DNA of 64,000 bases, from positions 49,625,155-49,689,154 of the forward strand of contig CM066994.1 in assembly GCA_033977485.1 (NCBI GenBank), written 5' to 3'. Made by a program: the position numbers and the translations under genes. Each line of letters begins with the position of its first letter. The first letter of the stretch is position 1. The notes under the pieces are model-generated. The model was given only the letters and a program-made list of their open reading frames with translations, ran no database searches and was not told where the DNA came from. This stretch comes from Hydrangea macrophylla. Lineage: Eukaryota > Streptophyta > Magnoliopsida > Cornales > Hydrangeaceae. Positions 1-64,000 of the stretch are shown piece by piece.

Positions 1-1024
1 TCTCTATGATCCACTTTCATTTCTCAAACTTTCTTTTCTTTTGCTTATGTTGGAATTATATTTTTTCTTAAAATGTTTCCGAATGTGAAAATACACGTGT
101 GTGTGTGTGTGTTTAGAATACCTTCCCTCTATCTCTCTCCCTATCTCTCCCTATATCTCTCTCCCAATCTCTCTCCCTCCCATTCTTCCTCTCCTTATCT
201 CTTTCACTTCTCGTTTTCAATAAATTTCGAGTACATGAAGTTCCGTTTGGTCTAGGCATGTGTTCTATGTCAATTAGGACTTGTTTAGTCATGTATTGAA
301 GTTTAAACTCGAGAATTTAGCAAAGTTGGGAAGGTTTCGAAAAGCTGTCACAAAGCTGTCAAGTTGCTGTCAAAAAATAAAACTGCTACTGTTTTTTTTA
401 TTTTCTGCCCAAATGGTGCAGAATTGGAAAAAATATTATTAGACAAAAGTTGTGTAGAATCGAATTTTACATACACTATTGCGGACAGAATGTGAAAATT
501 TCAAATATATAGTTACTTACGGATGTTTCAAAATTCAGCAATTATCCAAAAATGGTCCTTATGCTGTCAAAGTTGCTGTCAAATAAAAACTGCTACTGTT
601 ATTTCAATTTTCTTCCCAAACGGTGTAGAAATGGAAAAAATGTCATTAGACAAAAGTTGTTCAGAATCAAATTTTACATGGACCTAGACGAACAGAATGT
701 GAGAATTTCAAAGATATAGTTACTTACAGGTGTTTTAAAATTCAGCAACTATCTAAAAATGACCTTTTATCAAATTCATTGTAACTTTTCCCTTTCTCCT
801 TGAACTAGTACTTGTTCGGATAGTCTTTTAAGTAAGTTTTCAAATGTTTTCATCTTTGTTGGACTTGTTAACATGTAAGTCCATTTTGGCTTATATGTTA
901 GTAAGTCATATTTGTAGGAATCCCCGTGGGATCCCAATGTCGCTTCCGCATTTGTGATTGAATTTTAATTCTTTTCTCTCTATCTTTTTCTCTTTCCTCG
1001 CTCTTCGGTTTCCGGGGCGTGACA
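1..1024 (+). mobile_element. 3' part of a Ty3/gypsy-type LTR, 5' end outside window
   Basis: No coding sequence is visible. The stretch ends in GGGGCGTGACA at 1024, the usual 3' end of chromovirus-type Ty3 LTRs, and holds a CT-rich tract (108-200) and an internal tandem duplication. No primer binding site follows, because a different LTR begins at once. It may be the 5' LTR of the element whose pol remnant lies at 2539-4346, but its end differs clearly from the 4347-6454 LTR, so this is not shown. Confidence 0.45.
355..770. repeat. 208 bp tandem duplication (2 units)
   Basis: Two adjacent units (355-562 and 563-770) each run from GCTGTCAA..GTTGCTGTCAA to a shared segment near TTCAGCAA(T/C)TATC. 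They align along their whole length with scattered substitutions. They lie within the probable LTR. Confidence 0.75.
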
Positions 1025-1146
1025 GATAAGTTGTGTGTTTTAGCTATAATTTGTGCAGACTATAGTTGCCGTGTGAAGAATTGAAAGATAACGATAAAAG
1101 AAAGTGCTGAATTCTAATGAAGACAATTAAAAGCTGAAATACAGAG

Positions 1147-1258
1147 CTCGATCGATTGAAGACCATTTGATCGCTCGAAGGTTCGATCGATCGGGAGAGT
1201 TCAAGGGGTCGAAGACTCCAGAAGTTCAATCGATCGAAGGATGTTCGATTGATCGAGC
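1147..1258. repeat. TCGATCGA palindrome array A, family X LTR copy 1
   Basis: Five or so copies of a TCGATCGA-like self-complementary motif separated by unrelated spacers. The array ends about 70 bp upstream of the TATA-like sequence at 1327-1334, so it occupies the promoter (U3) part of the LTR. Confidence 0.85.
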
Positions 1259-1326
1259 ATGGCTTTTATCAGATTTTACGCACATGCAGCAGAAGCGGGT
1301 TTTTAACCCTAGCATTAGGTCTCTGC

Positions 1327-1334
1327 TATATATA
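1327..1334 (+). promoter_or_regulatory. TATA-like box of family X LTR copy 1
   Basis: TATATATA follows array A. The corresponding position in the other copies also carries a TATA sequence (about 40763 in copy 2; 61706-61713 on the minus strand in copy 3). Confidence 0.5.
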
Positions 1335-1754
1335 TTCGTATTGTAAACGTCCATAAGGACGCCCACATTACTTTTATCAGTTTTTGGAGAGAGAGATAGA
1401 GAGGTTACATGTTTTTGTAGGTTTATAAGCTTGGATATTGCTTTTGGATTGGTTTGTATCTAGTTTAATCAAAGTTTATCTTTCCAGGTTACCTCTTTAT
1501 TGTTTATTTACATTCTGCACTTAGTTTAGAGTAGTATAATCTATTGAATACATAGTTTTGCATGTTAGATACGTTTATACAACTAATTTTCATAGTTTAC
1601 ATGATTAAAACACAAACAAACAAAACTTTAATGGACTTTTACGTCAAAAACACATCTGTGACACTCCAGACCATGTCTGAGTAGTCCCCAGGTTGGGAGA
1701 TCACGATGAAACCATGATCTCAGGCCTCTTCCATGCAGCAGAATAATCTCTATG

Positions 1755-1874
1755 TTCGATCGATCGAGAAATCTCGATCGATCGAAACATAGATGCAGTC
1801 GAGCGATCGAAGTCTGTTCGATCGATAGAGAGATGAAGATATTCGATCGATCGAAAGCGCGTCGATCGATCGAA
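1755..1874. repeat. TCGATCGA palindrome array B, family X LTR copy 1
   Basis: Six motif copies start at about 1755, 1774, 1799, 1817, 1842 and 1861. Spacing alternates near 19 and 25 bp. The same number, order and near-identical spacing occur in copy 3 (61231-61347), although the spacers differ in sequence. Confidence 0.88.
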
Positions 1875-2538
1875 CCCTCTTATTCTTGAGGACATTCTAT
1901 GCAGTATTCCTAGACTTTCTGTTTTACTGATTTGTTATCAAATTGTCCCAAAACGCTCAGTTTGTCAAAACAGTCTGTAAACTTTAAGCCTTGAGGCATT
2001 TTTCTTCAATATATTTTGCAAACCACCCTCAATGCTAACACCATTGTAGGTGAGAGTCTAAACTATTGTTTTAAACCGCTTTTATGTATTTCAAACTCAA
2101 TTGTGATGATATAGTCCCGGTCATGAAAGGACTATAGATTCTTTATTCTAAGAGAAATACGGAATACTGTAGAGAGTGTGCTCTGTTGAGCTTCAACGTA
2201 ATTGCATGGTAGATGGCTAGGTCGCGGTGGATTCGTGTAATCCCAACATTCCTTTTTAATTAAGAAAAACACATTTTAAATCATTGCTTTAATTCGTTAG
2301 ATAGTAATTAGTTTAATCTAGTTTAATTGATTTACTTTTAGTAGTTGTTAAACTGTGGAACTTTGTGTTCTATATTCCTTTAAAATATTAAATTTTATTT
2401 TCTGGTTTGAGATTAATCTAAGTAATTAGTTTAACACCTTCCCGATGGGATCGACCTGGACTTAACTAGACTACTACTTGCACGATTACCTACACTTGGG
2501 TATAGCACACAAGCGCACACAAAAAAATTCTCGTGTCA

Positions 2539-4346: not shown

Positions 4347-6454
4347 TGTCACACCCGTCCCAGGGAAATAATCGTTGTAATTACACAACTGTTTTCTTGA
4401 ATTATTAATATTGATTAATAATAATTGAGATGGAGTTGACTATGGGTCAACGGTGGGTGTCAGTCAAGGATAGAGAAAGTTGGTAATTCATGAGGAGCAT
4501 GACATGATTAAATGGCATCTATGTATATTGAATGTTATTTGAAATATCTGGTATATGTGAATAGAAAATATACATGTGTAGTGTAATTTCTGTTAGTTTT
4601 GATCTTGATAAAGATCAATTAGAACGAATTAGAGATAACCAATGTAAATATGTTGCATAAAAGGTAGGTTATCTAGAGTTTCCACGAAAATAGGTTTCGG
4701 AACGTAATTTTGGACCCAAACAGGACTTAGACAAAAACTTTTAAAATTTATAGTTATCACTCGTCAGTCAATGAATTAGACGGTTAAGACGTTTTCGGGG
4801 GATCATTAGAAATTTTGAGAACTCATGGGGAGGTAAACACGATTTTGAAAAGAGTGTTAAAGATATTTTTCATAAATATCCAAAAACAAAATATCTTAGA
4901 GAAAGAGAGAGAAAAGGGAGATTTTATTCCCACGAGCTTCACGACCCCGATCGACGACCTTCCATCTGTTAGTTTTTTCCCAGATTTCATATAAGGACTC
5001 CTCAATGTAAGACCTTCGTTTTGATACTACATAGGCCATGTTTGGTTAAGTTTTACAAAAATCCTAATTCTACAAATTTGAAAAAAAAAACATGTAAATC
5101 CCTGTAGGATTCACTTGTAATCAGAGATTCGGCGTAGAATCGAACTACTACTGCTTTCCTCAAAGTTATAGGAACATAGCACGAGGTATTAATTCTGAAC
5201 CTATATAATATAGGGAATTTCGGATGTTTTAGATATCATATATGATATTGTGATCCGAGAAAAACTCATATGTTAATCTAGGCTCGTTAATTTTACTGCG
5301 AGTACAGATGAAAAGCATGGTGATATGTTTATGTGAGCATGCTAAGTGACTATGCGGGTCAAAGGGGAGTTTGGTACAAGTTCATGCCGGGGTTCGCCTC
5401 TCGATGTTTGAGAGTTATAGTAGCGACGACTACTTGCTTGATTTGGGAACCGGCCCTGCCAGAGCTGTTTGGTGCAATGGTAGATAGACTTTGGGCCATT
5501 GGCATCGCGGTTGATAGACTTTGGCTTGCTGATATACTGAATGAATGTGTGTCCCTCTCCCTAGAGACTAAATTATGTGGTTAAGATGTTTAAAAAATAA
5601 ATTACCATATATGCATATGTTTAGAATTGTGCACTGAGCATATAGTTGAGCAGTGAAGACTTACTTCATTGCAGGTGATAAGAAGAAAAGCAAGAAGAGT
5701 GAGGCCAATGGGACGACGGGAGTGTCCTTGTACCTATTTTTGCCTATTCCATTCCAATGTTGTAATATTTGTTCCAAGGAATTAGAACTATGTTTTGTTT
5801 AACTTGGAAATCCCGGGATGGATTCGTAGTACTGTAATTCGTAGTAAAACTCTTGTAATTATGTGTAGTAAGGTTGTATTATAGTTATGATCTTATCGAG
5901 TTTGGCATGTGTGGTTAACCCCTAAATGAGATTGAACAACCTTGGTATAGGAATTTGGCAGAATGTGCTGTACTTGGCAAAATAGTCAATTGGTCTCGGG
6001 GTCTAGTCGACTAGACACACTATTTAACGAGAGATCCCTTTCAGTTTTTAGGAAACCAGTCGACTGGTTTGGTAACAAGCGATTGGAAACTGCACCTAAA
6101 AACAGACATTTTGTTGGATCTCGTCCAGTCGACTGGACGGATACCGGTCAATTGGAAATCAAACCTCCAGTCGATTGGGTTCCTGACACAGTCGACTGGA
6201 TTGGGTGGTTGAGCTTTACTGTTTTTCTGAAATGCCAGAGCAGTCGACTAGGTTCCCAACACAGTCGACTGGAATGCTGCTTTTCAAAATGGATTGTTTC
6301 CTTAAATGTTTTAAATGGGAAAATCTTTTTATAATTCTGATTTTAATGAAATCCACTTATATTATTCCGCTGCTATGAACTTTAATTGAATTGGATGAGC
6401 CTTGGTGGCGTGCCATGTGTTCTATATCCGCGCATAGTGGGATGGATCGTAACA
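4347..6454 (+). mobile_element. 3' LTR of the chromovirus-type Ty3 element
   Basis: The LTR starts TGTCACACCCG directly after the purine tract and ends GGATCGTAACA, giving 2108 bp. It shows the same succession of sub-sequences as the solo LTR at 22965-25114: an AAAGAGAGAGAAAAGGGAGA-like block, a 'gtttgg(t/a)taag' block, a palindrome array, and a 'GGTGG(C/T)GTGCCA(T/C)GTG' block near the end. No coding region is recognised inside. Confidence 0.75.
5984..6274. repeat. AGTCGACT palindrome array in Ty3 LTR
   Basis: About ten copies of a CCAGTCGACTGG-like self-complementary motif, some degraded to GTCAATTGG or GCGATTGG, separated by 15-60 bp spacers. The array lies 180-470 bp before the LTR 3' end, the same relative place as the TCGACCGGTCGA array in the 22965-25114 LTR. 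Confidence 0.85.
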
Positions 6455-22964: not shown

Positions 22965-25114
22965 TACAACACCCGTGTGTGTGTTTATCGTATTTCATTA
23001 CATTTGTCATGCATGATAATGTGATGTGATGTGCATTTGTGGCACATGTGTGATTGAGTTAACTCACGAGCCGATTTAGGCATCTGTGTAAGAGAACTCT
23101 CTAAGACAGTATCAAGTGGATGTTTTATTGTTGTGAAGTCTCTCCGAGATTAAGACGTTCATTGTTTAATGCCCTAAATGTTTATTTGAAAATAAATGTT
23201 TACCTATGTATTTCACTATCTGTATTATTATGTGGTTTTTAATATAATTCTGTCGTTAATTATAGTATCCTTGTGAGGACGAATTAACACGCTACATAAT
23301 TCGTATATTAATTAGTAATTTCGTTAAATCACATGGGACCACGTTTTAGCAACCAAACAGAACCTAGTGAAAAACTAGTAAAGTTGGATATTTACTACTA
23401 GTACTAGGGGTGCTAAATCGAAGGTTTAACACCTTGAGGGAAGTTGAATATAATTTTGAAAAGTAAAGGCTATAAATGCATAAGTGTGAGATATTTTATA
23501 GAGCAAAACCTAAATTGACTTCTAAAGGAGGAGAGAGGAGAGAGAAAAAGGAGATTTGCAACCTTAGAGCTTGTGACGCACTTATACGGTGATCTGTTTT
23601 TGAGCCAAAATATTTTATCAGATATTCGGACTCGTCGAGGTGAGGCTGTCGTTTTGATATCCATTAGGGCTCGTTTGGATAAGTTTTTCGAACACTCATT
23701 TTCTAGAATTTTCATAAAAAGATGATAATCGAACTTTTGATCCATAGGAATTGTATTAGACGGATTTCTATACGTTCCTTGTGCTCGAGTTTTCCTTGGA
23801 ACTGGATTTAGGAGCGTCAATCGGAGGTGAGTGATTCAACTATTTATTTTGAAATGATTCCTTGACGTGTATTCATGTTTTGTGTGAAAAGCATGTTTCA
23901 ATTCATAGCAATATGTTGTTTAGTTCATATTGGGCGATTATATTGATAAGTAGGCCCACTTATACGGTGAAATGTTTGACTTATGTTGAAAGCATGATAA
24001 AATGTATTTGAGAATGTTTAGTTGCTATTTAAGTCAAAGGAGTGTGTGTACCAAGTCATTGTTGTGTAGCTGTTATAGGTATAAGGTCACACGTTTGAAG
24101 AAAAGAAACGTGGATCACCTAGTCGCGTGGACTTACTGGCGAGGAGTCGCATACTAGGAGTGTGGACCATTCACGTGAGACTCCGGAGACTAGTACGATT
24201 TGTAGAGATGTGAATGCGAGCATGTGTATCATTCATGTGCATCGTTGATTTATTCACTAAGCGTTAGCTTAAACATATCGAAATATATGTGATTATTCAA
24301 ATAACTATTTAAGGTGTTAATTCTGGCGAGGATTGGGGAGATGATCACGAGATCCAGGGAATTCACTTAGAAGGTGACTCATCATGTTTCATCTCGTAGT
24401 TTTATAATAGAAGTGGATAATAGCCTTGTATATGTTTTGTTTTATTTCATTTCCAAATGTTGTAAGGAATAACTTCCGAGTAAATAGAACTACGTTTTGT
24501 ATTAACTTGGAAAACATGGAATAAGTTGGTTAAGTTATTATGAATCTGAACCTGGAGTTCGAGTCTTGAATGTTTTACTAATCGACTTAATGTTTTATTT
24601 ATTTTTTTTTATAAAGATAGTTAATAATCGCAAGGGTCGCTTGACCTTAGGCAATATCCTAGTGCAAATGGAATGTTGTCAGGGGTCATTGGACCTATCG
24701 AAGGGGATAACTCGACCGGTCGAAGGGGGTATCTTGACCGGTCGAAGTGCCCTGTGCTGTGAAGGATTATTGTCGGGGGTTATTCGACCGGTCGAACGGG
24801 GCATCTCGACTGGTCGAAATACTCCCTACATGTTTTCTTTTTTTACCATGTCCGAAAATTATTTAAAATTTTTGATTGGTTCTTAAGACACCTTTGGGAC
24901 CACTTTAAATATAAATTTATTTGTTTCAAAATATAATTACATTTTCAAATTTATACGGATTTTAATAACTTCGGGTGTATTGTTTCAAATGAGCGATTAC
25001 TCACTGTTATCTTTAAAGTGTTTTTTCCACTGCTACAACTTTTAAACGAGTAGAAAGAGCGTCGGTGGTGTGCCACGTGACCTAGATTCATATACGTGGA
25101 TTTGGGGTGTGACA
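22965..25114 (+). mobile_element. Solo Ty3/gypsy LTR (2.15 kb)
   Basis: Starts near TACAACACCCG (a decayed TGT(A/C)ACACCCG) and ends GGGGTGTGACA. Flanks CCTAT (22960-22964) and CCTGT (25115-25119) match at 4 of 5. It has the same order of sub-sequences as the 4347-6454 LTR. There are no internal genes, so it arose by LTR-LTR recombination. Confidence 0.75.
24690..24818. repeat. TCGACCGGTCGA palindrome array in solo Ty3 LTR
   Basis: Clear copies at about 24712, 24734, 24784 and 24807, plus a decayed one near 24690. It sits about 300-420 bp before the LTR end, the same place as the AGTCGACT array of the related LTR. Confidence 0.85.
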
Positions 25115-40022: not shown

Positions 40023-41626
40023 CAAGTGAAGTTTATCACTTTAAATCTTATTGTCCAGAAATACAAAGTTACAAGATCTTGTTTGCACATCAATTGGACA
40101 ATTCGGGTAATAAAGATTAAACATCATTTTCAAGAAAAAAAATTCGTGCAATGAATAATTGACCACAAAAGAGTTTAAATTTTTTTTTGGAATAATGTTA
40201 ATTAAAATGAAAAATGGTAAAAGGGTACGAGGGGCATACCCCAAGGATATTATTGAATAGAGGTAGAAAGTGTATTATATTGCATGCTATATGGTCTTTT
40301 ATGCATACTTTTATGCCCCAGTCCTAAGATTTAGGTGCATTCTAATAATATTGTGCTTTTTATTGTGTTAATGCTAAAACTTATGTTTATGCATTATTTT
40401 ACAGGTATTAGAATGCAAGTTAATAAGGTAGAATTAAAGGAATGTGATCCCGGTGGAGAAAACAATAACAGCAGCTAGTTGAAGGATACTTTTGAAATTG
40501 AAGAACTCATAATATGAAAATTGGCCAAGACATGTAAAATGTAGATCAATGATTTACGGTCGCATGGCCGCAAATCGTGCATCAACCTGAGGTCCTAGTG
40601 AAGAGATATGTCAATTCTACCATATGTGCACAGAGTTGTCAAAATAGTGCAGAATAATCGATTGGAAGCTGTAACAATTGTTTTGTCACCCTATCATTCG
40701 ATTGGTTGGGGAAATAGATTGCTCGGAACCTTTCCAAAATGGTTCGCGTTTCCTACAAAAACCCTATAAATACCCTGTTATGATAGCATACGAAGGAAGC
40801 AGTCGTAGAAGTCAAAATACAACAGTTTTAGGGTTAGTTTTAGGTGAAATTAGGAGTAGGTTAGGGTAGTTGATGTATTTCTTTTTCCTCCATAGTTTAG
40901 GTTTGTGTTTTGTATTTGTATTTGTATTTTCAGATTCAAGAACATCAATTTCAGCTACATTTAATTCTGAATTTCAGTCCCATTTTTGTTAGTTTAGATC
41001 TTTGTAGTTAGGAATTTGTGATGAATCCTTAGGTTAATTAATTGTTATGCCAAAATCCTCTTTTACATATATTTTATACTTCATGTCAATGTATGAATTT
41101 TGAACTATTTCAAATACACGCCTTCCATTTATGCTTGGTATGTCTCATAGATTTTGTCAAGGATTATACATAACTCAATTTATGTTTTCCATGTTTTTAA
41201 GCTTTGCCACAACTTCTATCATAAATTAGTTGTGATTCCAACCTTAATTTCATCGCATTTATAACTAGAATTAGATTCCTACTATATAAAGGTAGAGGAT
41301 TTTCTACTATTTTTTTATAAAATTTATAGGACATCTTTAGTTGTTTTCATCCTAAAGTAGAAAGAATTTAGTTCCTTTTCATTAAATTTGTGGATGCTGT
41401 AATAGGGCATAATAATGAGTAAATTTGTCGATGCTTTTCTTTGACACCACTTCTATCACATCTTCCTAACGCAATTGCAATTTAGTAGTTTAAATTAGTT
41501 TATTTATGTATTAGTTTAGTAAACATTCCTTTCACCCCAAATCATCCTTTCTTTTCTTTAGGAAGTAAATTAGTAAACTCCATAATAATCTATCCTTTCT
41601 TGTGGGATCGACCTGGACTTATCCAG

Positions 41627-44500: not shown

Positions 44501-44509
44501 TATATAAGG
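44501..44509 (+). promoter_or_regulatory. TATA box of antisense module 2, element A
   Basis: TATATAAGG within the second copy of the antisense promoter block; the coding start is at 44950. Confidence 0.65.
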
Positions 44510-44949
44510 AACACGTGGATCACTTCTCCAGTTCCTGTGGCCAACTGAGAGATTTTACCGAGCGGTTTAAGAGCAACCAAGATTCCTGAGCAAGGTTCCC
44601 GAGTCCTTCCCTACGCTAAATTTTGTAAGTCCTTCCTTTCTGTCCTCAGTTCTTCACTGTCTTCTTCTTTTCTTGAACTAAGCTGGAGGGAGTGAACCCG
44701 CTTGGGTTAGAGCGAGCTTGGGATTTCTTCTTCCTTCGGTTCTGTCACTTCTTTCGGTCTGGGGGTATACTAGAGCAGTTTGACCGAACGGGTATTCCCG
44801 GGACAGTCTTGAGAGAGAGTTCTGATTCTTCTCGATTCTTGCACGACCTACCCTTTAGGTTGTTAGATCTGCCTCCCTTGTACATCAGACTAGGAGTTCT
44901 TGACCCATTCTCAGATCGTCTGCCCTTTAGGTCTTCCGTAGGTGCAGTC

Positions 44950-47150: not shown

Positions 47151-48064
47151 TTTTTTGTTTTTTGTTTCTTGTTGTAGTTTTTTTTTTCTTTTTGTGGGGA
47201 GGCTACTACAACTGCCCCCAGGCTTTGTACAGTTTCATCTTAATTAATGAAAAGGTCCCTGAGGTCAAACTTTTCCTTCCATTAACTTGTTTCGTTTCTG
47301 TACTTTGCCTGTTTATAATTGCTAGTATCTGCTTAGTTTTTGGCCAACCTAACACCTGCCTTAGCAAATGTTTTAGGACCATAACCAGTAGAACGCCTAG
47401 TCTTTCTGACCTGTTTAAAAGGTAATTGCCCGGTGTATTATAGGAATACCCTGTTTTACCGTCCGGGATATATCTCTGATCACTGTAAGTACTTGGGAAT
47501 ATCTTCCAAGTTCTTGTAGTGACCGGTGTGATTCCCTGTTTTGGCCTAATATTCCCCTGCCCCCCAAGCATTTTGCTAAGGCGGGAGTGTGGCAGTTAGT
47601 AGCCATAGGAAATCGACCTGGAACATGGGTGGTTGAAGGGTCCTTTGAAGCTTGCCATCGTCGACCACCTAGGGGGCTGACCCCGTCGTCGGCTGGACCT
47701 AGGCTAAGCCTTGTTTAATTTCCTGTTTAGGTCTAGTATCCCCTTGCCACCTGTGCGTCTTGTGAAGGCGGGGGCGTGTTGAGGAGCGACCATAGGAAAC
47801 CGACCTGGAACATGGGTGGTTGCAGGGTCATTTTGTGCCTGGGTTCGGAGCCCGAGGTCTTTTTAGTGCCTTGGGGTTAGGCCCAAGGTCTTTGGTGCCT
47901 CGGGGTTAGGCCCGAGGTCTTTTGAGCATTGCACGTTGTACTGACAGGAGTAAATTTCAAGTAAACCTTGCAATTTTATTTAAAAAGAAAAATTTATAAT
48001 GGTTGCTCGATCAGAGCTACAAAAGGAAATTTCTCTACCAATACTAAATTCCCGTGGGCAAATG
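47151..48064. other. 3' flank of antisense gene 2 and spacer to integrase
   Basis: Holds the antisense 3' end block (about 47200-47260). It also has three about 30 bp repeats of GGGGTTAGGCCCGAGGTCTT (47826-47930), also found in element B at 58948-59041. Otherwise no coding. Confidence 0.65.
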
Positions 48065-51159: not shown

Positions 51160-51616
51160 ATCCTCGTGACTCTAAGCAAAGACGTCCAGGTTTTGCCCCC
51201 CGGCGTAACGAGCTGACGTAGCTACTCCGGGCGGTGGTCTGATCTCCACGCAAGCATCCGGGCCCCTGAGGAGTTGGGAACTTCACTGTTAAGGTGTAGG
51301 TGGAGACGACTGCTCTGGCCCTGTTGAGGGTCGGCCTGCCAAGGATGACATTATAGGCCGACGGGGCTTCTACGATCACGAAATTGGTCAGCACAGAGGC
51401 CTGCTGAGGGTAGGTCCCCATGAGAACTGGAAGCTCGATTGTCCCGAACGGTTGTGTGCTGGAGCCGTTGAATCCAATCAGGGGTGTAGCGACCGGCCGG
51501 AGCCGATCCCTAGCGATCCCGAGTTGATCGAATGTTGACGTGAACATAATGTCGGACGAGCTGCCTATGTCCACCAGCACTCTCTTGACCATATAGTTTG
51601 CTATAGAAAGCAACAC
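51146..51616 (-). CDS. Element A aspartic protease region
   Basis: Retroviral-type aspartic protease that processes Gag-Pol. The active-site strand reads VLVDIGSSSDIMF, so the usual D-T/S-G is D-I-G here, which may impair activity. A flap-like YPQQASVLTNFVIV and the ILGRPTLN motif near the end are typical. It overlaps the RT frame by 14 bp. Confidence 0.85.
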   Translation of the reverse strand: MLLSIANYMVKRVLVDIGSSSDIMFTSTFDQLGIARDRLRPVATPLIGFNGSSTQPFGTIELPVLMGTYPQQASVLTNFVIVEAPSAYNVILGRPTLNRARAVVSTYTLTVKFPTPQGPGCLRGDQTTARSSYVSSLRRGAKPGRLCLESRGYAWD

Positions 51617-51699
51617 TACTAGCGGGTCATCGTGGGGGTAGTGGACGCCCTGCAGGTCGTCGGATGTGAATGTTAGAACATCGGTTGGGGAGGAGCCGG

Positions 51700-53382
51700 T
51701 GGATTGGACCTGCTAGACATCCTCTCGGGATGTCCGAGCATGCCTCTTCCGTGCCGACTGTGAATCGCCTCCGCCTGACGTTCCTCCGAAGATCACGTGG
51801 ATGTGGCCCAGTGGTGGTGGCTGATCAGGAGCTCGAGTGTCCTGCCGGGGTCGTCTATCTGCTGTGACGAACTCAGCGAGGTGTCCCTGCTCGATTAGCT
51901 TCTCTATTGCCATCTTTAATTTGAAGCAATCCTACGTTTCATGGCCATGATCCCTGTGGTAACGGTAAAATTTATCCCGGTTCTGCTTACCGGGCGGTGC
52001 TCTGAGCTTGGCTGGCTGCTGAAGCAACCTCTGCGCTTCTGCGGCGGCCATGACTTCATGTATGGGCTGGGAAAGGGGTGTGAAAGCGATCGGGGGCTGA
52101 CCTCGGCCATCCTTTTGATCTTGCTTTGGCTTCTTTCCCGAGCCCTTCTCGAATCCTTCATGCTTGCGGTTGGCCTTCGGGGATTCGTCTCCCGTCGGGC
52201 CTGCACGCTTCGCCTTCAGGAACTCCTCGGTATCAATGTATTTTCCGACCCTCTCCGAGAGCTCCACCAGGGTGGCCGGCCGGTCGGTCGCGATGGAACG
52301 ACGTGGCGACCTTGGTGTGTTGAACTCCCGAGCAGAAGGCCATGATTGCGGCCGTTTTGTTGAGGTCGGATCAGGAGCCTTTATTGGTTGAAATGGTCCA
52401 CGTATTCCCTCAAGGATTCCCCCTTACATTGCTTGACGGTCAACAATTGAGTGTCCGGTTGTGACCGGTCGAGCATCCCGACAAACTGGCTGATGAACAG
52501 CTTGCTGAGGGCTTTGAAATCATCGACCGTTCAGGGCTTCAAAGCGTGGAACCACTGTGCGGCTGGCCCCTTGAGGGTACTGGAGAAGGCCAGGCACAGT
52601 AGCTCATCCACCGTGGTGACCAGTGCCATCTGAGCCTTGTAAGTGCGGATGTGGTCCACCGAACTCCGTGTGCCGTCGTAGGAGCTGAGGTGAGGTGGTT
52701 TGAACTTCTGTAGAATAGGAAACCGTGTCACCCGAGCGGTATAGGGTGATTCAGTCTCCGTGTTGGTGAGGTTGTGGCCGGACTTGCGGTTCAGCCTCTC
52801 GATTTACTGCTACAGCTCCTCGACGTGGGCCTTTACGTCATCCCGCCCGGTCCTCCTCTTTGTATCCGAGCGGCAGGTTGGGTCTGATGACGAGGCCTCT
52901 TCCTCAAAGCGTGTCGACTTCGGGGATAGGGCCCGGCTCTGGGTCCGGGAAATGTTGTGCCTAAGATCCCCCCGGCTCAGGGCCGAAGGATCCTCGGCCG
53001 ATTCCCGGGCTCTCCGTCCAGACTCCTCCCCTCGGGCCGCGTGCCGCCGATCGATAATAATTCTGGCGTCCTCTACTCGGCGAGGATTGGACCGAGGTCG
53101 TCTTTGCGAGCTCCTGGTGGCGTGGCTGCGCTCTCCCTCGCTGGGGTGATCCCGGTCCGGTGGGGTCACCGGGGCGGAACGGGCTTGCCTTCGTGCCCGA
53201 GCAGGCCTCTGAATAGGGGCGCTCTTCTCGAGCTGATTCTCTGATGCGGGGCGTTTTTCCTGTTGGGCCATAAGTGCCTCTATCTGTTCCTGTGTTCGAC
53301 GCTGGCCCTCCAAGAGTTGTGCCAGCGCTGCCGATATTTGCTCGGTCGTCATGGCGGCTTTTTTACCCATATTTGGCGGCAT
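51700..53382 (-). pseudogene. Element A gag (several stops and frameshifts)
   Basis: Starts at 53382 (MPPNMGKKAA) with a Glu/Arg-rich N-terminal part. TAG/TAA codons follow at about 52806-52812. The retrotransposon gag domain (FKPPHLSSYDGTRS, HIRTYKAQM, KGPAAQWFHALKP) is cut by a stop at 52531. The C-terminal part carries the YHRDHGHET.DCFKLK motif with a stop inside. These breaks suggest the copy cannot move by itself. Confidence 0.88.
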
Positions 53383-53423
53383 GTTGATCAGTTGAGAATT
53401 TTTTGGTGAGAAGACTCAGTCAA

Positions 53424-53441
53424 TTCCCACAGACGGCGCCA
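53424..53441 (-). other. Primer binding site of element A
   Basis: On the minus strand TGGCGCCGTCTGTGGGAA begins three bases inside the 5' LTR. TGGCGCC is the usual start of plant non-chromovirus Ty3 primer sites. I do not assign the tRNA. Confidence 0.75.
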
Positions 53442-53444
53442 AAC

Positions 53445-54060
53445 TGATGATGCCTAAAACTGGTAAGAAAGGTTTAGAGAGAGAAAGAGACAAAGAACAA
53501 CTTGTATGTGGTTCGGTCTCGTTAATGAGGTGACCTACGTCCACGATTGCGTCTGTGCGCTCTCACTAGCAGATCACCGGCGGGCCTGGTGAGCCAACAA
53601 AGGTGGGCGGTACTACCAGTAATACCGGCCGGGTATATGCGTATGGTGGTGAGTTCTCTGTTGAATGCTTGTTAGCTAGAGAATTATTTTTGGGGTCCCC
53701 TTAAACAGGGTAGGTGGGCTCTTTTATAGATGCAAGAGTCCACCCTTACATGGTAAGTTGATAGGATTAGGAAGCCTAATCTAATCACAATAGATTTGCA
53801 TGATTTTAGGAGAGATTCCTAAGTGGTTTAGGAAACTACCATATCTCCTTTCGCAGACTTATAGTTGATTTAGGAAACTGCTGGACAGGTCGGGATCGTG
53901 GGACACCGCGACCTTTATGCCTGGCCCGTTGATATGACTGCGCGGTTTGCATGAACACCTCGGGAATGCTCGGCCCCCCGGGGTGCGCCCATACTGGAAT
54001 AACCGGCGCTTCTGGGTGACGTGGCACTGGCTTCACAGCTTGATTATTTTGGACATATCA
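53445..54060 (-). repeat. 5' LTR of element A
   Basis: 616 bp, TGATGATGCC to GGACATATCA on the plus strand; the partner is 41627-42242. Confidence 0.95.
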
Positions 54061-54133
54061 TCCATTATTACCTTCACGATCGTTTACACTTGGACGTTAG
54101 CATTCAAGTGCACACACATTTCCAATTGTGTCA

Positions 54134-54653: not shown

Positions 54654-55269
54654 TGATAATGCCAAAAATTGGTAAGAGTAATAAAGAGAGAGAGATGATG
54701 ACATGATGAATTGTGTGTGGTTCGACCCCGTTAATGAGGTGACCTATGTCCACGTGGTGCGTTAGTGTGCTACACTTGTAGATCACCGGCGGGCCTAGTG
54801 AGCCAACAATTGGGCGGCACTACCAGTAATACTGGCCGGGTATATGCGTATGATATCAGTATCTAGCTATTCTTTAGGTTAAGAATGCCATCCCCTTGAT
54901 GGGGGGTGAGTGGTCCCTTTTATAGGTGTAAGAGACCACCCGTACATGGTAACTGATGAGATAAGGAAACTCCATCTAATTACAATTGGATGAGCATACA
55001 TCATGGAAGGTTTCCTAAGTAGATTAGGAAACTATCTACACTTTCCATTAGTCTTCTGACTGATTTAGGGAATTGCTGAACAACTTGGTTGTCAAGCTGC
55101 ACATTATAAAAGGCTACTGCACCGCATGCCCGGGCATTGCGAGCATCCCGAACGGTAAAAGCAAAACACCTCGGGACTGGTGGGCCACAAGCTCCCCTTC
55201 CAGATAGTCCCGGGCCTTTCGCTGCTGACGTGGGGGCTTGACTTTAGCAGAATATTTCTGAACATATCA
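54654..55269 (-). repeat. 3' LTR of element B
   Basis: 616 bp, TGATAATGCC to GAACATATCA, co-linear with the element A LTRs. Confidence 0.93.
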
Positions 55270-55666
55270 GCTGCCCCCCATTTTCGAAGTTGATGTGATG
55301 ACCCATCAGATGAAGTTTGAAAATTAAGATTGCTCCTGAAGAACCGCCCGATAATAGGTCGGGACTCAACCCGAGGTGGGACCGGTCATAGCAGTCATCC
55401 GGGGTATGGACCGAGCGGTGGCCAAGCGGGCCCATGTCCTGCCTCTTCCATGTGTCAGCTGGTCACTGGCCTAGTTAGGATCCAACGATGCCAACGTGGA
55501 AGTAATCAAACCGTTTGTGTGGTAACCGAATCGTCTCGTCAGACATTTAATGAGCGCGTCTTTTGAGGCGATGCTTCGCGTGCCCGAGGCGACAACTGTT
55601 TGCCACTTTGGGCGGAAAAGCGTCTGAGCCATTGGATCTGTTTTGATCTGAACCGTTCAAGGTTCC

Positions 55667-55677
55667 TATATAAAGGA
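55667..55677 (+). promoter_or_regulatory. TATA box of element B antisense gene
   Basis: CTATATAAAGG in the single antisense promoter block (55480-55760) shared with both modules of element A. Confidence 0.6.
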
Positions 55678-56134
55678 TACTTGCCCATTTCTTCAATTCT
55701 TTGCTACAACAATATAGATTACTGAGTGGTTTAAGAGCTAACAAGATCCCGAGCAAGATTCCTGATCTCCTTTCTACGCTAATCTTTGGAAGTCTTTCCT
55801 TCCCCACTTCAGTTCATCACTCTTTTCCCTCTCTCTCTCTCTCCTTCTTTTCTGGGCGAGTCTGGAGAGTGCGAACCCACTTGGGTTAGAACGGGAGTGG
55901 GATTTTTTCTTTCTTAGGTTCGGTTCCCTCTTCCAGTCAGGAGGTTCGTTAGGTAGACTTAACCGGGCGGGCGTTCCTGGGGTAGTCTTGAGAGAGTGCC
56001 ACCTGGTGTTAAGGACCATCCACTCTTTTCCTTCCAGATTAGTGACTTTGCCCCCTCTGTATATCAGGTTCAGTGTGTCTGACCCCTACTTAGACCGTAA
56101 CCTACTTTCCCGTCCTACCACAGGAATACCAGAA

Positions 56135-58252
56135 ATGGAACATTCCGACTTCGATTCTGCTTCCCGATCTTCTGACTAGATATACCAATCGGGAAGTCCT
56201 GGCACCAGCATAGATCCACCATCCGCTTCCCCGTGGGACCATCATAGTGAGGGCAGGATTCCTACCCGGATCTCTAACGACGATTCTGACCAGGAGGCCC
56301 CGATGGCCTCCGTTTAGCGGGGTTCAGGCAACGTGGCGCCTAGGGAGCCTGATTCCGAGGTAGCATTCGCCTGCGAGTTCATCCCCTCGACCTTGCACGC
56401 CGGGGACCTTGGTCGAGTTGGGGATAAGTATGCTATTCCCAGCGATAGCTCTTTGTTCGTCCATCCCGGTGGGGCCCACATCTGTCGCAGGGGTCTTGTT
56501 ACTTTATATGAGGATGCCTTCCTGGCGGACCTTCGTATTCCTCTCCACCCGACCGCCCGGGATGCTTTGATCTACCTTGGGATAGCTCCCGGGCAGTTGG
56601 CTCCGAATGGGTGGAGGTTCCTGATGGGGTCCATTTCTTTGTGGCCCCAAGTTTTTGGGTACGAGCTCACCCTCCAGGAGTTCTTCTGGATCCACCGGCC
56701 GTTCCCAGTACACGGGGAGGTCGGTTTCTTCTCTCTGGGGGCTCAGCAGGGGAAAAAAATTATTATCAACTGCCCGAGCAACAACAATGGGTGGAAGAAC
56801 AAGTTCTTCCAGGTATCTACCCCCGGGCTCTACGAGCGAGCCCTAAGGGATCAACTAAGGACCTCCTGGGCGGGAGAGTTAAGGGGTAAGCCCGTCTTAC
56901 GCCCTTTCCTACTTCTTTCCAGGCCTTTTTGGTATGACCATGAAACTGATCACTTCGGCTTATTTTGCAGCGGGGTCGATCAATCTCTCGAGCGTTCTGG
57001 AGGACTGTGAGGAAAGGATCAGAGGCTTGGTGGAACGGCCCATCAACATTTGGGACATGCTGACCTGGTCGGGAGACCAAACAGGTAATCGTCGACCCGA
57101 CCAACCCGCCGAGGCTCCCATTTTCCCGGCCATCATCCCAGGCAAGGATTTAATTAATGACTTCATTTTTGCTTATGCTTTGTTATCTCGTTGCTTCGGT
57201 TACTGACCTCGCGGTTATTTTCCTTTTGTAGAAATGGCCCCCAGGAGAGACCCAGAGCGGTTGAGGGCTCTGCAAGCTGCTGCTGCCGAGCGGATGGCGG
57301 CAGCAGGGAAGAGGCCGGCCGTCTGCCGTCGAGGCCACTGACAGTGACCTCCCCCTCCGGTGCCTAAGGCGTGGCCCACTGGCCGACTGAGCTCCCCAGG
57401 AGACGCTAGTCCCCCGGGTGATGACAGTGGAGAAGACGTCAGCTCCTCGGTCGGACATTCCCTCCGGGACACCCCTGGAGGAGTCGAGGGAAACCGTGAC
57501 AGGGTCAGGCCGTATTTGCTCCCGAGCCAGGTGGAGAGGTGTACCAGCATGTCTCCCCAGGTATTTTAGGGGTGGCTCTACTCCATCTCCCATCTGGTAA
57601 GTGACACTGCCGTGCTTTTTGATTTCTGTACACTTGATTCGTTCTACCAGCAACAGTGACTGACCGATTTTCTCTTGATTTCTTGTAGGTCGGCTGCATG
57701 GCTGCCGGAGCTGAGTATTTCATGCCGGCACTGGCCGAGAGGGCCACCGCCATCGAGACCGCCCTGGCTGAGAAAGAGGTTGCCCTGGAGACCAAAGAGA
57801 GGGCCTTGACCGTAGAGAAAAATAGGGTCAAGGGCTTGGTTTTGAACCTTGAGGCCGTCCAGGAAGAGTTGGCGGTGGCTCTGGCGGAGTTGGAGACCGA
57901 GCGGGCTGGCCGCGCGGCAGTAGAGGCCCGTTAAAGGGTACTTTTGGAGGAGGCGGCGGTGGCCACTGGTCCCCCAGGAGAGACCTTTGATGATGGTTTC
58001 TTCCTCGGGTATGACGATTTGAAGAGGAGGTTGGCTCGGGACCACCAAGAGTTGGACACCTCCCCTTACCAGGGGGTGGATTCTAATTATTGGGACATAG
58101 TTCTGGGTCCTGCTGACGGTGCCGCCGCCGAGCCCGAGGGTCCAGCTATCACCCTGGAAGGTGCAACCCTCCTAGGTGAGCCAGCTGGAGACACCTCCCC
58201 GGTGGGAGGGAATACGGAGACCGAGGAGGTGGTCATCGTTGACGACGCCTAA
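56135..58252 (+). pseudogene. Antisense gene of element B (PF04195-like), broken
   Basis: Counterpart of 44950-47150. The ATG at 56135 is followed by TAG at 56177. The domain part 56333-56885 is open (LRIPLHPTARDALIYLG, NGWRFLMGSISLWPQV, NNNGWKNKFFQVS). Exon 2 is 56971-57141 with a GC donor (CCAG|GCAAGG), exon 3 starts 57232 and is frameshifted, and exon 4 starts 57689 with a TAA at 57932. Intron positions equal those of element A, so splicing predates the split of the two copies. Confidence 0.82.
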
Positions 58253-58425
58253 CTCCTCTGCTGCTTCTTTTTTTTTGTGGAGGCTACTACAATGCAACCC
58301 TCCTAGGTGAGCCAGCTGGAGACACCTCCCCGGTGGGAGGGAATACGGAGACCGAGGAGGTGGTCATCGTTGACGACGCCTAACTCCTCTGCTGCTTCTT
58401 TTTTTTTTTGTGGAGGCTACTACAA
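58162..58425. repeat. 131 bp tandem duplication at the antisense gene 3' end
   Basis: Units 58162-58292 and 58293-58425 differ only in poly-T length. Each contains the final acidic codons, the TAA and the start of the 3' flank. Element A has one unit. Confidence 0.93.
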
Positions 58426-59179
58426 CTGCCCCCCATGCACTGTACAATTTTTTTTTATATATTAATAAAAAGGTCCTTGAGGCCAACTTTCATCAATTGT
58501 TTACTGCTTCTGTACTTTGTGTGCCTGTTTGTGATTGCCAGTATCCGCCCAATTTTGACCGACCAAACCCCTGCCTTAGCAAATGGTTTAGGACCGTAAC
58601 TGGTAGAACAGTTGGTTTTATTGATTCCCGGTGTATTATAGGTATTTGTCCTGTTTACCTTCCGGGATGGCCCGGTGTATTATAGGAAAGATCCTGTTTT
58701 ACCGTCCGGGATGTTCATCTCTGATCACTGTAAGTACTTAGGAATGTTAGGATTCCCAGTCCCTTTAATGACCGGTGTTATTTCCTGTTTTGGCCCAGTC
58801 CCTGCCCCCCAAGCATTTAGCTAAGGCGGGTGTGTGGGATTGAGTTGACCGTAGGAAACCGACCTGGAACATGGGTGGTTGCAGAGTCCTTTGAAGCTTG
58901 CCATCATAAGCCACCTAGGAGGTTTTCCCCCATTGTCGGTTGGGCCTAAGCGAAGCCGGTGCCTCGGGGTTAGGCCCGAGGTCTTTTATGCCACGGGTAT
59001 GTTCTCGAGGTCTTTGTGCCTTGGGGTTAAGCCCGAGGTCTTTTAATAATGCGCGGGACACTGATAGGAGTAATTTTGCAAAGTAAAATCTTTCATTTTA
59101 TTCAAAAATTTATAAGGAATACTCAAACGGAGCTTACAAAAATTTCCTAACCAGTACTAAACTATCCATGTCGCAGGGT

Positions 59180-60594
59180 TAATGACAGTATTTTTGGAGG
59201 TGTTGCACATTCCATGGATGAGACAGCTCATGTCCGTCCAGGCTACGTAGCCAGTATGTTCCCGGTCAGTTGACTCGGGTAACTGTATATGGACCTTCCC
59301 AGTTTGGCCCCAACTTCCCATGGCTCGGGACTCGGGTAGACTGGTTCACTACCTTAAGGACGAGGTCTCCTACTTGGAAACTGTGATGCTTCACCTTGCT
59401 GTTGTAATATCGTGATACCCGCTGCTTTTAGGCCGCGACCTTTAGATAGGCTCGGTCTCTTTTTTCCTCTACCAAGTCCAGTTCTGTTCTAAGTGCATCT
59501 TTGTTGTCTGGCATGCTGTAATTCGCCACCCAGTGAGTGGGCAACCCGAGCTGTATTGGGACCACCGCCTCGAGCCCGTAGGTTAAAGAGAACGGTGTCT
59601 CACCTATTGTCGCTCGGGGTGTGGTGCGGTAGGCCCACAGGAGGGTTGGCAGTTCTTCAGCCCACAACCCTTTGGCGCTTTCAAGTCTTGTTTTGATCGA
59701 CTGCAAGATCGTCCGGTTTGTCACCTCGGCTTGACCATTGGCTTGAGGGTGCTCGGGAGAGGAATAGTGATTAAGTATCCCATAGCCCGAGCAGAACTGC
59801 CTGAATACTGGGGTGTCGAATTGCCTACCATTGTCGCTGACCAGAACCCGGGGAGTGTCGAACCTACTGAGTATGTTCTTTTCCATGAAACTTTCCATCT
59901 TTCGCTCGGTTATTGTTGCCAAGGGCTCGGCCTCCGCCCACTTGGTAAAGTAGTCAACGGTGATGACTGCGAACTTAACCTGTCCCTTTCCCATCAGTAG
60001 GGGTCCGACAATATCGATGCCCTACTAGGCAAAGGACCAGGGGCTATGGATTGGTGTCTGAAGCTCTCCCGGTCGGTTGATCATGGGGGAGTATCTCTGA
60101 CACTTGTCGCATCTTTTGGCAAATTCCTGAGAATCCCGGACCATCGTCGGCCAGTAATATCCCTGTAGCAGAGCCTTTCTAGAGAGTGCCCGGCCTCTGA
60201 TGTGATTCCCGCACACTCCTTCATGGATGTCATACAACACTGTTTGGACCTGTGCAGGATGAACGCAGCGGAGGTACGGTACGGAGAATCCCCTTTTGTA
60301 GAGGATGCCGTCTACAAGATGATATTGGGCCGCCCGATACCTAACTTGGCGGGCCTCCTCTTTCTCGTTTGGTAACTTACCCGTTGTCAGGAATGCCATG
60401 ATCGGGTCCATCCAGCTGGGTCCTAAGGCGTCCTATTCCACCTCCATGCATTCTGAGTTGATCACACTTGGCTCGGGCAGGTACTCTGTCCTTATCCCAG
60501 GCAAGTCTGACTCAGAAGACGAAGCGAGGCGGGCTAACCGGTCGGCTCTGGTGCGTGATGGAGAAACCCTAAAGCCTCTTCGAAACTGCTCGGA
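59180..60594 (-). pseudogene. Element B integrase and end of RNase H (stops)
   Basis: Blocks identical in order to element A: HPAQVQTVLYDIHEGVCGNH, CDKCQ, VSDNGRQF, NGQAEVTNR. Stops occur at about 60022 (Trp to TAG in AQWGIDIVG) and about 59430 (in AYKQRV). About 25 bp is deleted near 60560. The frame is then cut by the family X LTR at 60600. Confidence 0.9.
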
Positions 60595-61230
60595 CTAGGT
60601 GACACGACTAAAAAGTTGTGCGCTCTTGTGCAACACCCAAGTGTAGGTGATCGTGCAAGTAATATAGTACTGGAAGTCCAGGTCGATCCCATAGGGAAGG
60701 AATAGGAAGAATATCTACTAAGTTACAACCTAAAGAAAAAGAAAAATATGAATCTAGAGGTGAAAGTTCTAACGAATCCTAGTTAATTAAATTAAACTAA
60801 AGAATAATCTAAAGCATAAAGAAACATAACTAATTAAATAAATATACTAAAGGTGTTGGAAATACGAGAATCCACATCAATCCTAACCATCTACCATGCA
60901 TATTCATTAACGCTCTATGGAGTACATCCCTTTTCAGCATTCCGTATTTTTCTAAAGATATAGAATCAATAGCCCTTTCATACCCGGGACTATATCATCA
61001 CAAGTGAGTTAAAATACATGAAAGACGGTTTAAAACAATGGTAATTACTTGCACTCTAAATGGTGTTAGCATTCAAAGTGGTTTTCAAAAGTCATTGAAG
61101 AAAATAGCCTTAAGGCTTTAAGTTCTAAAAACTGTTGTGACAAACTGAGCTTATTGGGACAATTTGATGACAGATTTCTAAAACAGAAAGTCATGGAATA
61201 CTTAAAAGAATCATCTCAAGATTTAACATG

Positions 61231-61347
61231 TTCGATCGATCGAAGCGCTCTCGATCGATCGAACAGTCATCCTTCAATCGATCGAAATGCCTTCGATCGC
61301 TTGACTATCCCTGGTTCGATCGATCGAACTGTCTTCGATCGATCGAG
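61231..61347. repeat. TCGATCGA palindrome array B, family X LTR copy 3
   Basis: Six motifs starting at about 61231, 61251, 61273, 61292, 61315 and 61334. Spacing alternates near 19 and 23 bp, mirroring copy 1. Confidence 0.9.
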
Positions 61348-61705
61348 CCCAAGGTTTCTATATCATACATGGCAGAGGCTAAGAATCAATATTTCATCAC
61401 ATATCTCCAACGTCTAAACTACAGAAACATGATTAAACTAGTGCAGGAATAGAAAAACATAACAATCATTAACATCTAAACTAATAAACAATCAAATAGA
61501 GATAAAGGAACATAAAAACCTGGAATAAACCTGAATAGAACTCGTAATCAACATCAATCTTGAGTAATCTTCAGTATATTAATGAAAAAGATGAAGAAGT
61601 ATATGAATCTAACCTAATCTACTCCTAAACTAACCCTAAAACTACCCTAAACTGCTGTTTTTCGCGTTCTGGAGCGTCCTCCCTTCGTCTGGCGTCAAAA
61701 CGACG

Positions 61706-61713
61706 TATATATA
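61706..61713 (-). promoter_or_regulatory. TATA box of family X LTR copy 3
   Basis: TATATATA (minus strand CCCTATATATACG) about 45 bp downstream of array A in transcription direction. Confidence 0.55.
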
Positions 61714-61755
61714 GGGTTCCCACAGAGTTTACGCAACTTTTGGGTGAAAATAAGG

Positions 61756-61820
61756 TTCGATCGATCGAGCTCAGTTCGATCGATCGAAGGTTCGATCGAT
61801 TGAACTCTCTTCAATCGCTT
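61756..61820. repeat. TCGATCGA palindrome array A, family X LTR copy 3
   Basis: Three full TTCGATCGATCGA-like motifs (last variant ..GATTGA) plus a degenerate TTCAATCGCTTGAA, just upstream of the TATA box on the minus strand. Confidence 0.88.
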
Positions 61821-62218
61821 GAACTCCTCTGATTTTGACAGCTCTGCACACCGATGGGAGAATGGCCATAACTTTTTACTCGGACCTCGGATTGACCTTC
61901 CGTTTGCGGCCACGCGACCGTAACTCAAAGATCTACATTTTATATCTCTGGGAAAATCTTCCAAATCTGAAGTCATCATTGTCAAAATTGCCATTTTCTC
62001 AGCTGCTTCTTTGTTCTCTTCACCAGAATCACTTTCTATGCAATGGTTGCTTCCTATAACCTGCAAAATGGTGTAAAAACACATATTTGAGTCTCAACAT
62101 CATAGAAAACACTTAATCATTGATATGCATCTAAATATAGGGACTTGGGGATAAAAGTATGCATAAAAAGACCGTGTAATACACTATAAACATGCACTTT
62201 TCACCACGAATCACTAGG

Positions 62219-63999
62219 ACTAGGTAGGCTACCATATTATCTCCCCGTGCTTCGTATTCCTCGTTGACTTGATTGACGACGAGCTGAGAGTCACTGTAAC
62301 CTTGGACCTGCTGCGCTCCCATGGAGGTGGCCAACTGCAATCCGGCCAATAGGGCTTCATACTCAGCCTCGTTGTTGGAGGCACAAAACCCAAAATCTTA
62401 GGGCATACTCGAGCTGGATGCCGTCGGGGTGTGGTCAGGATGATCCCTGCCACACTACCTTGCTGGTTTGAGGAACCATCCACATACAGCACCCAGGTGG
62501 GGATGTCATCTTGTAGCCCAGGCGGTAGGACCGGTGGATCGAGCTCTTCAACCGGGTCTTCTGGATAGGTGAACTCAACCAGAAAGTCTGCTACTACTTG
62601 GCCTTTGATTGCCATCCGGGGATGGTAGGCCACTTCAAATTCTTCTAACTCCATGGCCCATTTGACGAGCCTCCCGGATGTGTCGGGCCTGCTTAAAATC
62701 CTGCGGAGAGGTTGGTCAGTAAGGACCACAATGACATGGGCCTGAAAATACGGACGGAGTCTCCGGGCGGAAGTGATGAGGGCGAATGCAAGTTTTTTGA
62801 CGCAGGAGTATCTGCTCTCCGCACCTTGGAGCACCCGGCTGGTATAGTACACCGGGAACTGTATCCCGTGCTCTTCCCTAACGAGTGCCGAGCTGACTGC
62901 TGAGGGTGATACTGCCAAATAGAGGAACAACTCTTCCCCCGGTATGGGCGTTGAGAGTAGAGGAGGAGATGCCAAGTACTTCTTGAGTTCCTGGAATGCC
63001 TCCTCACACTCTTCTGACCACTGAAATGCCATATGGAGGATCTTGAAGAATAGCAGGCACCGGTCGGTAGCTCTGGAGACAAATCTGTTCAGTGCGGTAA
63101 CCCATCCGGCCAAACTCTGTACTTCTTTGGTTGACCGGGGTAACCGCATGTTGATGATGGCCTGGATTTTCTCGGGGTTTGCTTCAATTCCCCACCGGCT
63201 GACTAGGTGCCCTAAGAACTTTCCGGATGAAACACCAAATGTGCACTTGGTCGGGTTCAACCTCATCCCGAACTTCCTCAAAATGCTGAAGGCCCCGGCC
63301 AAGTGTTCCAGATGGTCAGACTCATCCCGGCTTTTAACCAGCAGATCATCGACATACACCTCCATCGATTTCCCGATCAAGTCTTTGAACATGTGATTGA
63401 CCAGGCGTTGATAAGTTGACCAGGCATTTTTGAGGCCGAAGGGCATGACTTTGTAGTAGTAGGTCCCCTGATCTGTTATGAAGGAGGTCTTCTCTTCGTC
63501 TCTGGGGTACATGCTGATCTGATTGTACCCGTAGTAGGCATCCATGAACGAGAGGAGGGAGTGGCCGGCTGTCAAATCTATAAGGAGATCTATCCTGGGC
63601 AGTGGATAGCAATCCTTGGGGCAGGCCTTGTTCAAGTCGGTAAAGTCCACGCACATCCTCCACTTCCCATTGTTTTTCTTGACAAGTACTACATTTACTA
63701 ACCAGTCGGGATAGTGGACCTCTCGGATAGACGATAGACTGGGCTTTGAGGAGCTTCTCGACCTCCTCATACACTACCTTTTATCTCTCGGGGGCCATGC
63801 CTCGTCTCTTCTGCTTCACCGGTCGAGAGTCTGGGTTAGTGTTAAGCCGGTGAGACATTACCCGGGGGTCAATCCCGGGCATATCTTCATGGCACCAGGC
63901 GAACACGTCCTGACTCTGTTGCAGGAATTGAATCAGCTTCTCCCTAAGGCGGGACTCCAGTGAGGTGCCGATGCTGACCGTTCGGTCTGGATGTTATGG
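62219..63999 (-). pseudogene. Element B RT and RNase H regions (frameshifted)
   Basis: Continues element B pol beyond the solo LTR. It has VDFTDLNKACP, FMDAYYGYNQI, MPFGLKNAWSTYQRLV, YVDD, Ty3 RNase H (LTDQPLRRILSRPD) and archaeal-type RNase H ([29 protein letters not shown]). Frameshifts lie near 62395-62440 and 63728, and a nonsense codon near 63781. The upstream part runs toward the protease-RT junction at the window edge. Confidence 0.9.
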
Positions 64000-64000
64000 G

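Follow-up and report, generated by a model that had tools for sequence, protein, structure and literature searches.

Palindromic repeated motifs (RMs), clustered upstream of the TATA box, have been described in 13 Sireviruses (Bousios et al. 2010, PMC2829016); in that article the RM is regarded as specific to Sireviruses and is reported missing from the classic retrotransposons compared there, and a CGG-CCG signature is given for all RMs except that of Tnd-1. The present analysis concerns a stretch of 64,000 nucleotides from Hydrangea macrophylla (assembly GCA_033977485.1, contig CM066994.1, positions 49,625,155 to 49,689,154 of the forward strand), hereafter the window, in which palindromes are arrayed within long terminal repeats (LTRs). 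One architecture, with another palindrome for each LTR family, is what is new here: TCGATCGATCGA in a family termed X, CCAGTCGACTGG in family Y and TCGACCGGTCGA in a diverged relative of the latter. The arrays may be understood, with a probability of roughly 0.55, as cis-regulatory clusters in LTR promoters, each palindrome serving as a presumed docking site for a homodimeric DNA-binding protein.

Three LTRs of family X are present in the window, and two of them, copies 1 and 3, carry arrays (Table 1; array B spacings and ranks are counted in element orientation). The self-complementary word of the original prediction is real, but the repeat unit is the 12-bp palindrome TCGATCGATCGA, at times TTCGATCGATCGAA, and not an 8-mer; the exact 8-mer TCGATCGA has 26 matches in the window, overlaps counted, versus a mean of 0.49 and a maximum of 3 in 100 shuffles. 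The six motifs predicted for array B in copies 3 and 1, with conserved number and spacing, could be mapped in both LTRs. Ranks 1, 2, 5 and 6 are perfect in both copies, rank 4 is imperfect in both (TCGATCGATAGA / TCGATCGATTGA), and rank 3, reading TCGAGCGATCGA in copy 1 and TCAAGCGATCGA in copy 3, shows the T5G variant in either case, which is the shared degenerate member 'GCGATCGA' predicted at equal rank. Array B was also correctly placed downstream of the TATA box in both copies; it lies at a distance of ≈ 370-550 bp, in the predicted transcribed part. Beyond the earlier account, the TCGATCGATCGA motif forms a second array, A, upstream of the TATA box, with a within-pair spacing of again 18-19 bp, such that copy 3 holds 10 palindromes and copy 1 holds 12, including one badly degenerate. 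A fourth TCGA occurs in no member of the family X arrays. The third and more diverged LTR, copy 2, is devoid of a palindrome array, with three 8/12 matches in 40241-41640, two at the place of array A and none at that of array B.

The motif and spacer comparison is a pairwise alignment of the two array-bearing copies only. That the motif is kept while the spacer drifts, as originally stated, is evident from 70/72 identical motif columns versus 26/42 spacer columns plus 5 gap columns (Fisher p 1.1e-6). Outside the array, identity amounts to 78/100 in the next 100 bp downstream, 215/290 in the following 300 bp and 159/238 in the rest, with 49/90 in the 100 bp upstream of array B. Both motif mismatches sit on CpG positions, and the motif excess is not only a CpG effect because the non-CpG motif columns are identical throughout (36/36). 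The CpGs of copy 1 survived in copy 3 at 16/17 within motifs versus 7/19 outside (p 0.0004), and those of copy 3 survived in copy 1 at 16/16 versus 7/12 (p 0.008); CpG loss outside the motifs is the expectation for methylated plant repeats. The direction of the contrast agrees with the selection that had been proposed, although two copies are all that it draws upon. The spacers have diverged, as had been noted, but those of equal rank are still homologous (score 23/47 versus a shuffled mean of 14.4).

When the window was searched for clusters of mutually similar near-palindromes, whatever their sequence, two arrays were returned besides those of family X; none came up in 20 random windows matched in dinucleotide composition, which served as the null. 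The first lies in the family Y LTR (4347..6454), whose ends were set by eye and for which no target duplication was established. This LTR starts one base after a purine-rich tract, with integrase-end open reading frames (ORFs) of gypsy type upstream of it, and on these grounds is assigned as the 3′ LTR of a Ty3/gypsy element. Two of the five ORFs scanned scored above the cut-off, with Integrase_H2C2 (E 3e-10) and SH3_Tf2-1 (E 2e-17); the element is perhaps a chromovirus, the chromodomain giving a weak match below the cut-off (E 0.052) and no convincing counterpart in a comparison with solved structures (best E 0.67). Three of the family Y palindromes (6003, 6056 and 6125) are longer, 16-18 bp, and their arms are symmetric within each but differ from one palindrome to the next, which hints that symmetry as such is constrained. 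The symmetry permutation gave 0.009 for the whole palindrome with nine members and 0.06 with the seven clear ones (0.04 and 0.13 for the arms alone), and no support in the relative at 24690 (0.23). The second array is located in this diverged relative of the family Y LTR, with its 3′ end at 25114, which resembles the family Y LTR at 75.6% over 90 columns and at 72% over another 100 and has a similar 3′ end. It is built from a 22-bp tandem unit with spacers that are alike. Between the arrays of these homologous LTRs (6003-6272 and 24690-24817) the half-site TCGACYGG is common to CCAGTCGACTGG and TCGACCGGTCGA, in opposite arrangement.

As regards the LTR assignment of family X, already part of the original prediction, copy 3 displays both the TG...CA ends and the 5-bp target duplication by which an LTR is recognized. 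Copy 3 is a complete solo LTR, because CTAGG is found on both sides of these ends and a gypsy frame is interrupted; the insertion site is the reverse transcriptase-RNase H region of a Retand-type element, with matches to RVT_1 and RT_RNaseH in the interrupted frame on one side. The flanks align at 86% and 81% with 49322-49437 and 49499-49680, respectively, of the other Retand-type element in the window. Copy 1, without its 5′ end, is 73% identical to copy 3 over 777 aligned columns. Copy 2 is probably a solo LTR as well, its flanks ATTAT and ATTAC representing a 4/5 target duplication. The predicted TATA box occupies a common alignment position in all three copies. No coding part is attached to family X LTRs in the window, hence the superfamily is unclassified.

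Adjacent to the truncated copy 1, a 207-bp unit is tandemly duplicated (355-761) in a possible LTR ending GGGGCGTGACA at 1024. The two gypsy elements that host or split family X copies, at 41627-54060 and ≈ 55000-64000, carry pol on the minus strand, with Transposase_28 (PF04195) held in antisense ORFs, at 44677-45723 and 56318-57010, just above the cut-off; an antisense Transposase_28 ORF is a reported feature of Retand elements (PMC11963269). The LTRs of the former element (41627-42242 and 53445-54060) are 97% alike over the first 300 bp. Elsewhere, a near-perfect inverted repeat at 9321-9470 is predicted to fold very stably into a hairpin (150 nt, -95.8 kcal/mol), resembling a miniature inverted-repeat transposable element or a microRNA (miRNA) precursor, and at 15879-18285 a 275-277 bp unit is tandemly repeated in two adjacent arrays of opposing orientation, giving inverted satellite-like blocks.

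Table 1. Positions of LTRs, palindrome arrays and predicted TATA boxes in the window.
Feature	Position	Strand	Description
Family X copy 3	60600..62213	minus	complete solo LTR, 1614 bp, TG...CA, 5-bp target duplication CTAGG
CTAGG duplication flanking copy 3	60595-60599 and 62214-62218		
Array A, copy 3	61757..61822	minus	four palindromes; spacing 19,16,19; 44-109 bp upstream of TATA box
Predicted TATA box, copy 3	61706..61713	minus	TATATATA
Array B, copy 3	61232..61346	minus	six TCGATCGATCGA-type palindromes; start-to-start spacing 19,23,19,23,19
Family X copy 1	1024..2538 (start approximate)	plus	5′-truncated LTR; 3′ end ...GTGTCA
Array A, copy 1	1148..1256	plus	five palindromes (10-11/12) plus a badly degenerate member (near 1201); 71-179 bp upstream of TATA box
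Predicted TATA box, copy 1	1327..1334	plus	TATATATA
Array B, copy 1	1756..1873	plus	six palindromes; start-to-start spacing 18,25,19,25,19
Family X copy 2, first part	40254..41626	plus	LTR split by nested Retand-type element
Predicted TATA box, copy 2	40765	plus	TATAAATA
Family X copy 2, last part	54061..54133	plus	LTR 3′ end ...GTGTCA
Family Y LTR	4347..6454	plus	TGTCACACCC...GTAACA; ends set by eye
Family Y array	6003..6272	plus	CCAGTCGACTGG-type palindromes, 7 clear and 2 decayed members
Array in relative of family Y	24690..24817	plus	five TCGACCGGTCGA-type palindromes, of which the first is badly degenerate; spacing 22 except for a single gap of 50

It can be rationalized that each 12-14 bp palindrome would be the docking site of a homodimeric DNA-binding protein. 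This protein would most likely be a transcription factor of the host, with a factor encoded by the element as a further possibility. Array A, 44-179 bp upstream of the TATA box, would occupy the region where enhancers of plant LTR promoters sit, array B would form a second cluster in the transcribed part, and the multiplicity of sites may promote cooperative binding. Source elements that retained the sites would have stayed active, such that the sites survived while the spacers drifted. The dimeric protein raised in the original prediction fits best among the readings because sequence is conserved without covariation, array A is promoter-proximal and the palindromes are family-specific. The observations themselves comprise the arrays and their position, the motif-over-spacer contrast of two copies, the retained CpGs and the recurrence with another palindrome in a gypsy family; protein binding, dimerisation, transcriptional effect and selection are, all four, what we infer from this pattern. 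An exploratory value for helical phasing near 10.5 bp (0.019 versus an ad hoc null), three member positions having since shifted by 1-2 bases, is not relied on.

Several points weigh against protein docking. The array-bearing copies of family X available are two only, and copy 2 lost the arrays or never had them, so that they are not required by every lineage. The position of array B inside the transcribed region is less typical of an enhancer. Of all predicted properties of the arrays, RNA folding is the strongest, and the covariation tests that speak for sequence over pairing have little power, most members being identical. Furthermore, a bound protein could shield CpGs from methylation or mutation without selection on the site. 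A more far-reaching version appears improbable: promoter arrays of palindromes specific to each family (TCGA word, ≈ 16-25 bp spacing) would have arisen by convergence in unrelated LTR families of a single plant genome, gypsy included, all of them read by one versatile class of dimeric binding proteins whose specificity would co-evolve with each family, possibly against LTR silencing.

The main rival to protein docking is a small-RNA role, as part of a function or liability at the RNA level: transcribed arrays would give long hairpins that act at some stage of the element's life cycle, such as leader structure or RNA dimerisation, or that feed small-RNA silencing. The fold check is favorable to it. 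The predicted RNA fold of array B reaches -64.5 kcal/mol over 123 nt in copy 3 (z -6.7) and -57.0 kcal/mol in copy 1 (z -4.4), the remaining four folded stretches range from z -3.9 to -5.1, the family Y array in part only (5998-6137), and the predicted DNA fold of array B has z -7.7 (copy 3) and -5.4 (copy 1). Each of the six arrays, with family Y again in part only (6091-6230), falls within stretches whose energy is under -40 kcal/mol per 110 nt, a cut-off taken from the miRNA-like window threshold given in PMC10760457, a source that also reports an excess of small RNAs on the palindrome clusters of maize Sireviruses. The window contains 59 such stretches, 14 of them with GC ≤0.50, of which six are the arrays; the other 53 are mostly GC-rich. 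On the other hand, good folding comes as a by-product of any array made up of identical palindromes, and compensatory change favoring pair partners or occurring within the family X palindromes was not seen. Between pair partners in the family X arrays no clear covariation emerged; ranks 3-4 are the worst pairing of array B in copy 1 (10/12), and rank 3 of copy 3 pairs at 11 positions with rank 4 versus 10 with the others, one base better. Within the family X core, permutation fractions of 0.5-1.0 likewise showed no covariation, both tests being weak because most members are identical. Pairing thus seems less the object of conservation than the sequence itself. Array A precedes the TATA box and hence lies outside the leader RNA, so that the structured leader proposed originally retains its strong predicted folds but neither covariation in family X nor array A. 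Rfam gave no match in the window at gathering scores. Taken together, an RNA-level role is possible but doubtful.

Less probable still is the absence of any function, in which (TCGA)3-word minisatellites arose from slippage or template switching in reverse transcription and are too young for motif decay. The 42-bp period (x 2.8) reported by Tandem Repeats Finder in array B of copy 3 and the 22-bp tandem unit with similar spacers at 24690 are in line with such an origin, as is the fact that 9/15 motif deviations in family X are CpG transitions, matching ordinary decay (21/22 motifs, one badly degenerate member dropped). Within-array spacers, however, are hardly alike when both copies are pooled (22/66 versus a shuffled mean of 18.7, a weak likeness), the pair spacers of copy 3 alone giving 10/21 versus 5.9 (fraction 0.03). 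On the original exclusion of simple tandem duplication, the 42-bp period and the weak spacer likeness point in different directions. Moreover, the motifs are 97% identical in surroundings that differ by 22-46% (22% in the 100 bp downstream, 38% in the spacers and 46% in the 100 bp upstream), and the lack of a fourth TCGA is unlike a free microsatellite. A copy-correcting process, that is gene conversion or hairpin-templated repair keeping the members alike, had also been proposed and was not supported. It would account for near-identical members within an array, and hairpin-templated correction predicts perfect symmetric arms of differing sequence, as in the three family Y palindromes, for which the permutation support is weak and which have no counterpart of supported symmetry in the relative at 24690. 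Homogenisation would, however, erase the deviations at ranks 3 and 4 that copies 1 and 3 share, the degenerate rank 3 having escaped correction in both. With T5G shared at rank 3, rank 4 imperfect in both copies and the other four perfect, array B seems to be older than the split of the two copies and not homogenised since; copy correction is accordingly very unlikely.

Palindrome arrays in gypsy LTRs were not found described in searches of an open-licence library, which is not proof of absence. A motif-pair pattern run on IMG/VR returned two contigs (L001, L002), which were rejected as GATC-repeat runs in unrelated DNA; a stricter pair pattern and two LTR-body patterns gave no match there, nor did two exact-pattern scans of bacterial and archaeal genomes, and these scans are uninformative on plants because they are exact-pattern scans of non-plant collections. 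A possible resemblance to heat-shock elements or W-boxes was considered and dropped.

Tnt1 of tobacco is a Ty1/copia element. Its BII boxes are several LTR-promoter boxes, stated in PMC3316501 to bind defence-induced DNA-binding factors; their sequence is another one, and they are comparable with the arrays in the idea of repeated protein sites in an LTR only. The VANC target repeats of Arabidopsis VANDAL elements (PMC5735166, PMC10398659) are similar in that short-motif arrays lie in non-coding DNA, the motif varies between related families and co-evolution with the binding protein is proposed, whereas VANDAL is another kind of transposon with an encoded VANC protein, and the motifs given there (e.g. 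YAGTATTAY) are non-palindromic. The small-RNA hot spots of maize Sireviruses (Bousios et al. 2016, as relayed in PMC10760457 and PMC5311732) share with the present arrays the clustering of palindromes in the regulatory part of the LTR and strong predicted RNA structure, but belong to another superfamily than family Y.

Closest are the Sirevirus RMs themselves. In PMC2829016, the Vitis motif CGGTCGACCG has the centre GTCGAC, as does CCAGTCGACTGG, and the Tnd-1 motif ACAATCGATTGT has the centre ATCGAT, as does TCGATCGATCGA. With respect to the RM number of at least 8 dyad-symmetric copies per element, copies 3 and 1 hold 10 and 12 palindromes and family Y 7 plus 2 decayed ones, the relative at 24690 only 5. 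Array A is upstream of the TATA box as the RMs are, whereas array B is downstream; the TATA box of family Y was not located. Differences lie in the signature, since CGG-CCG in that order is absent from TCGATCGATCGA, CCAGTCGACTGG and TCGACCGGTCGA, and in the superfamily, Sireviruses being Ty1/copia and family Y Ty3/gypsy by its Integrase_H2C2 and SH3_Tf2-1 ORFs. By analogy, the arrays would work like the Sirevirus motifs, although family Y, by the tests applied to it, is no member of that group. Palindrome arrays in plant LTRs, previously a Sirevirus (copia) speciality in the account of PMC2829016, are now seen in one LTR of gypsy type as well as in an LTR family yet to be assigned, and different palindromes at similar spacing suggest a more general route of promoter building in plant retrotransposons. 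If this is true, a genome-wide motif search could reveal the host factors exploited by retrotransposons as well as the way in which the arrays expose these elements to small-RNA silencing. The best reading is that arrays of putative dimeric sites are the gypsy counterpart of the palindromic motifs in the LTRs of Sireviruses.
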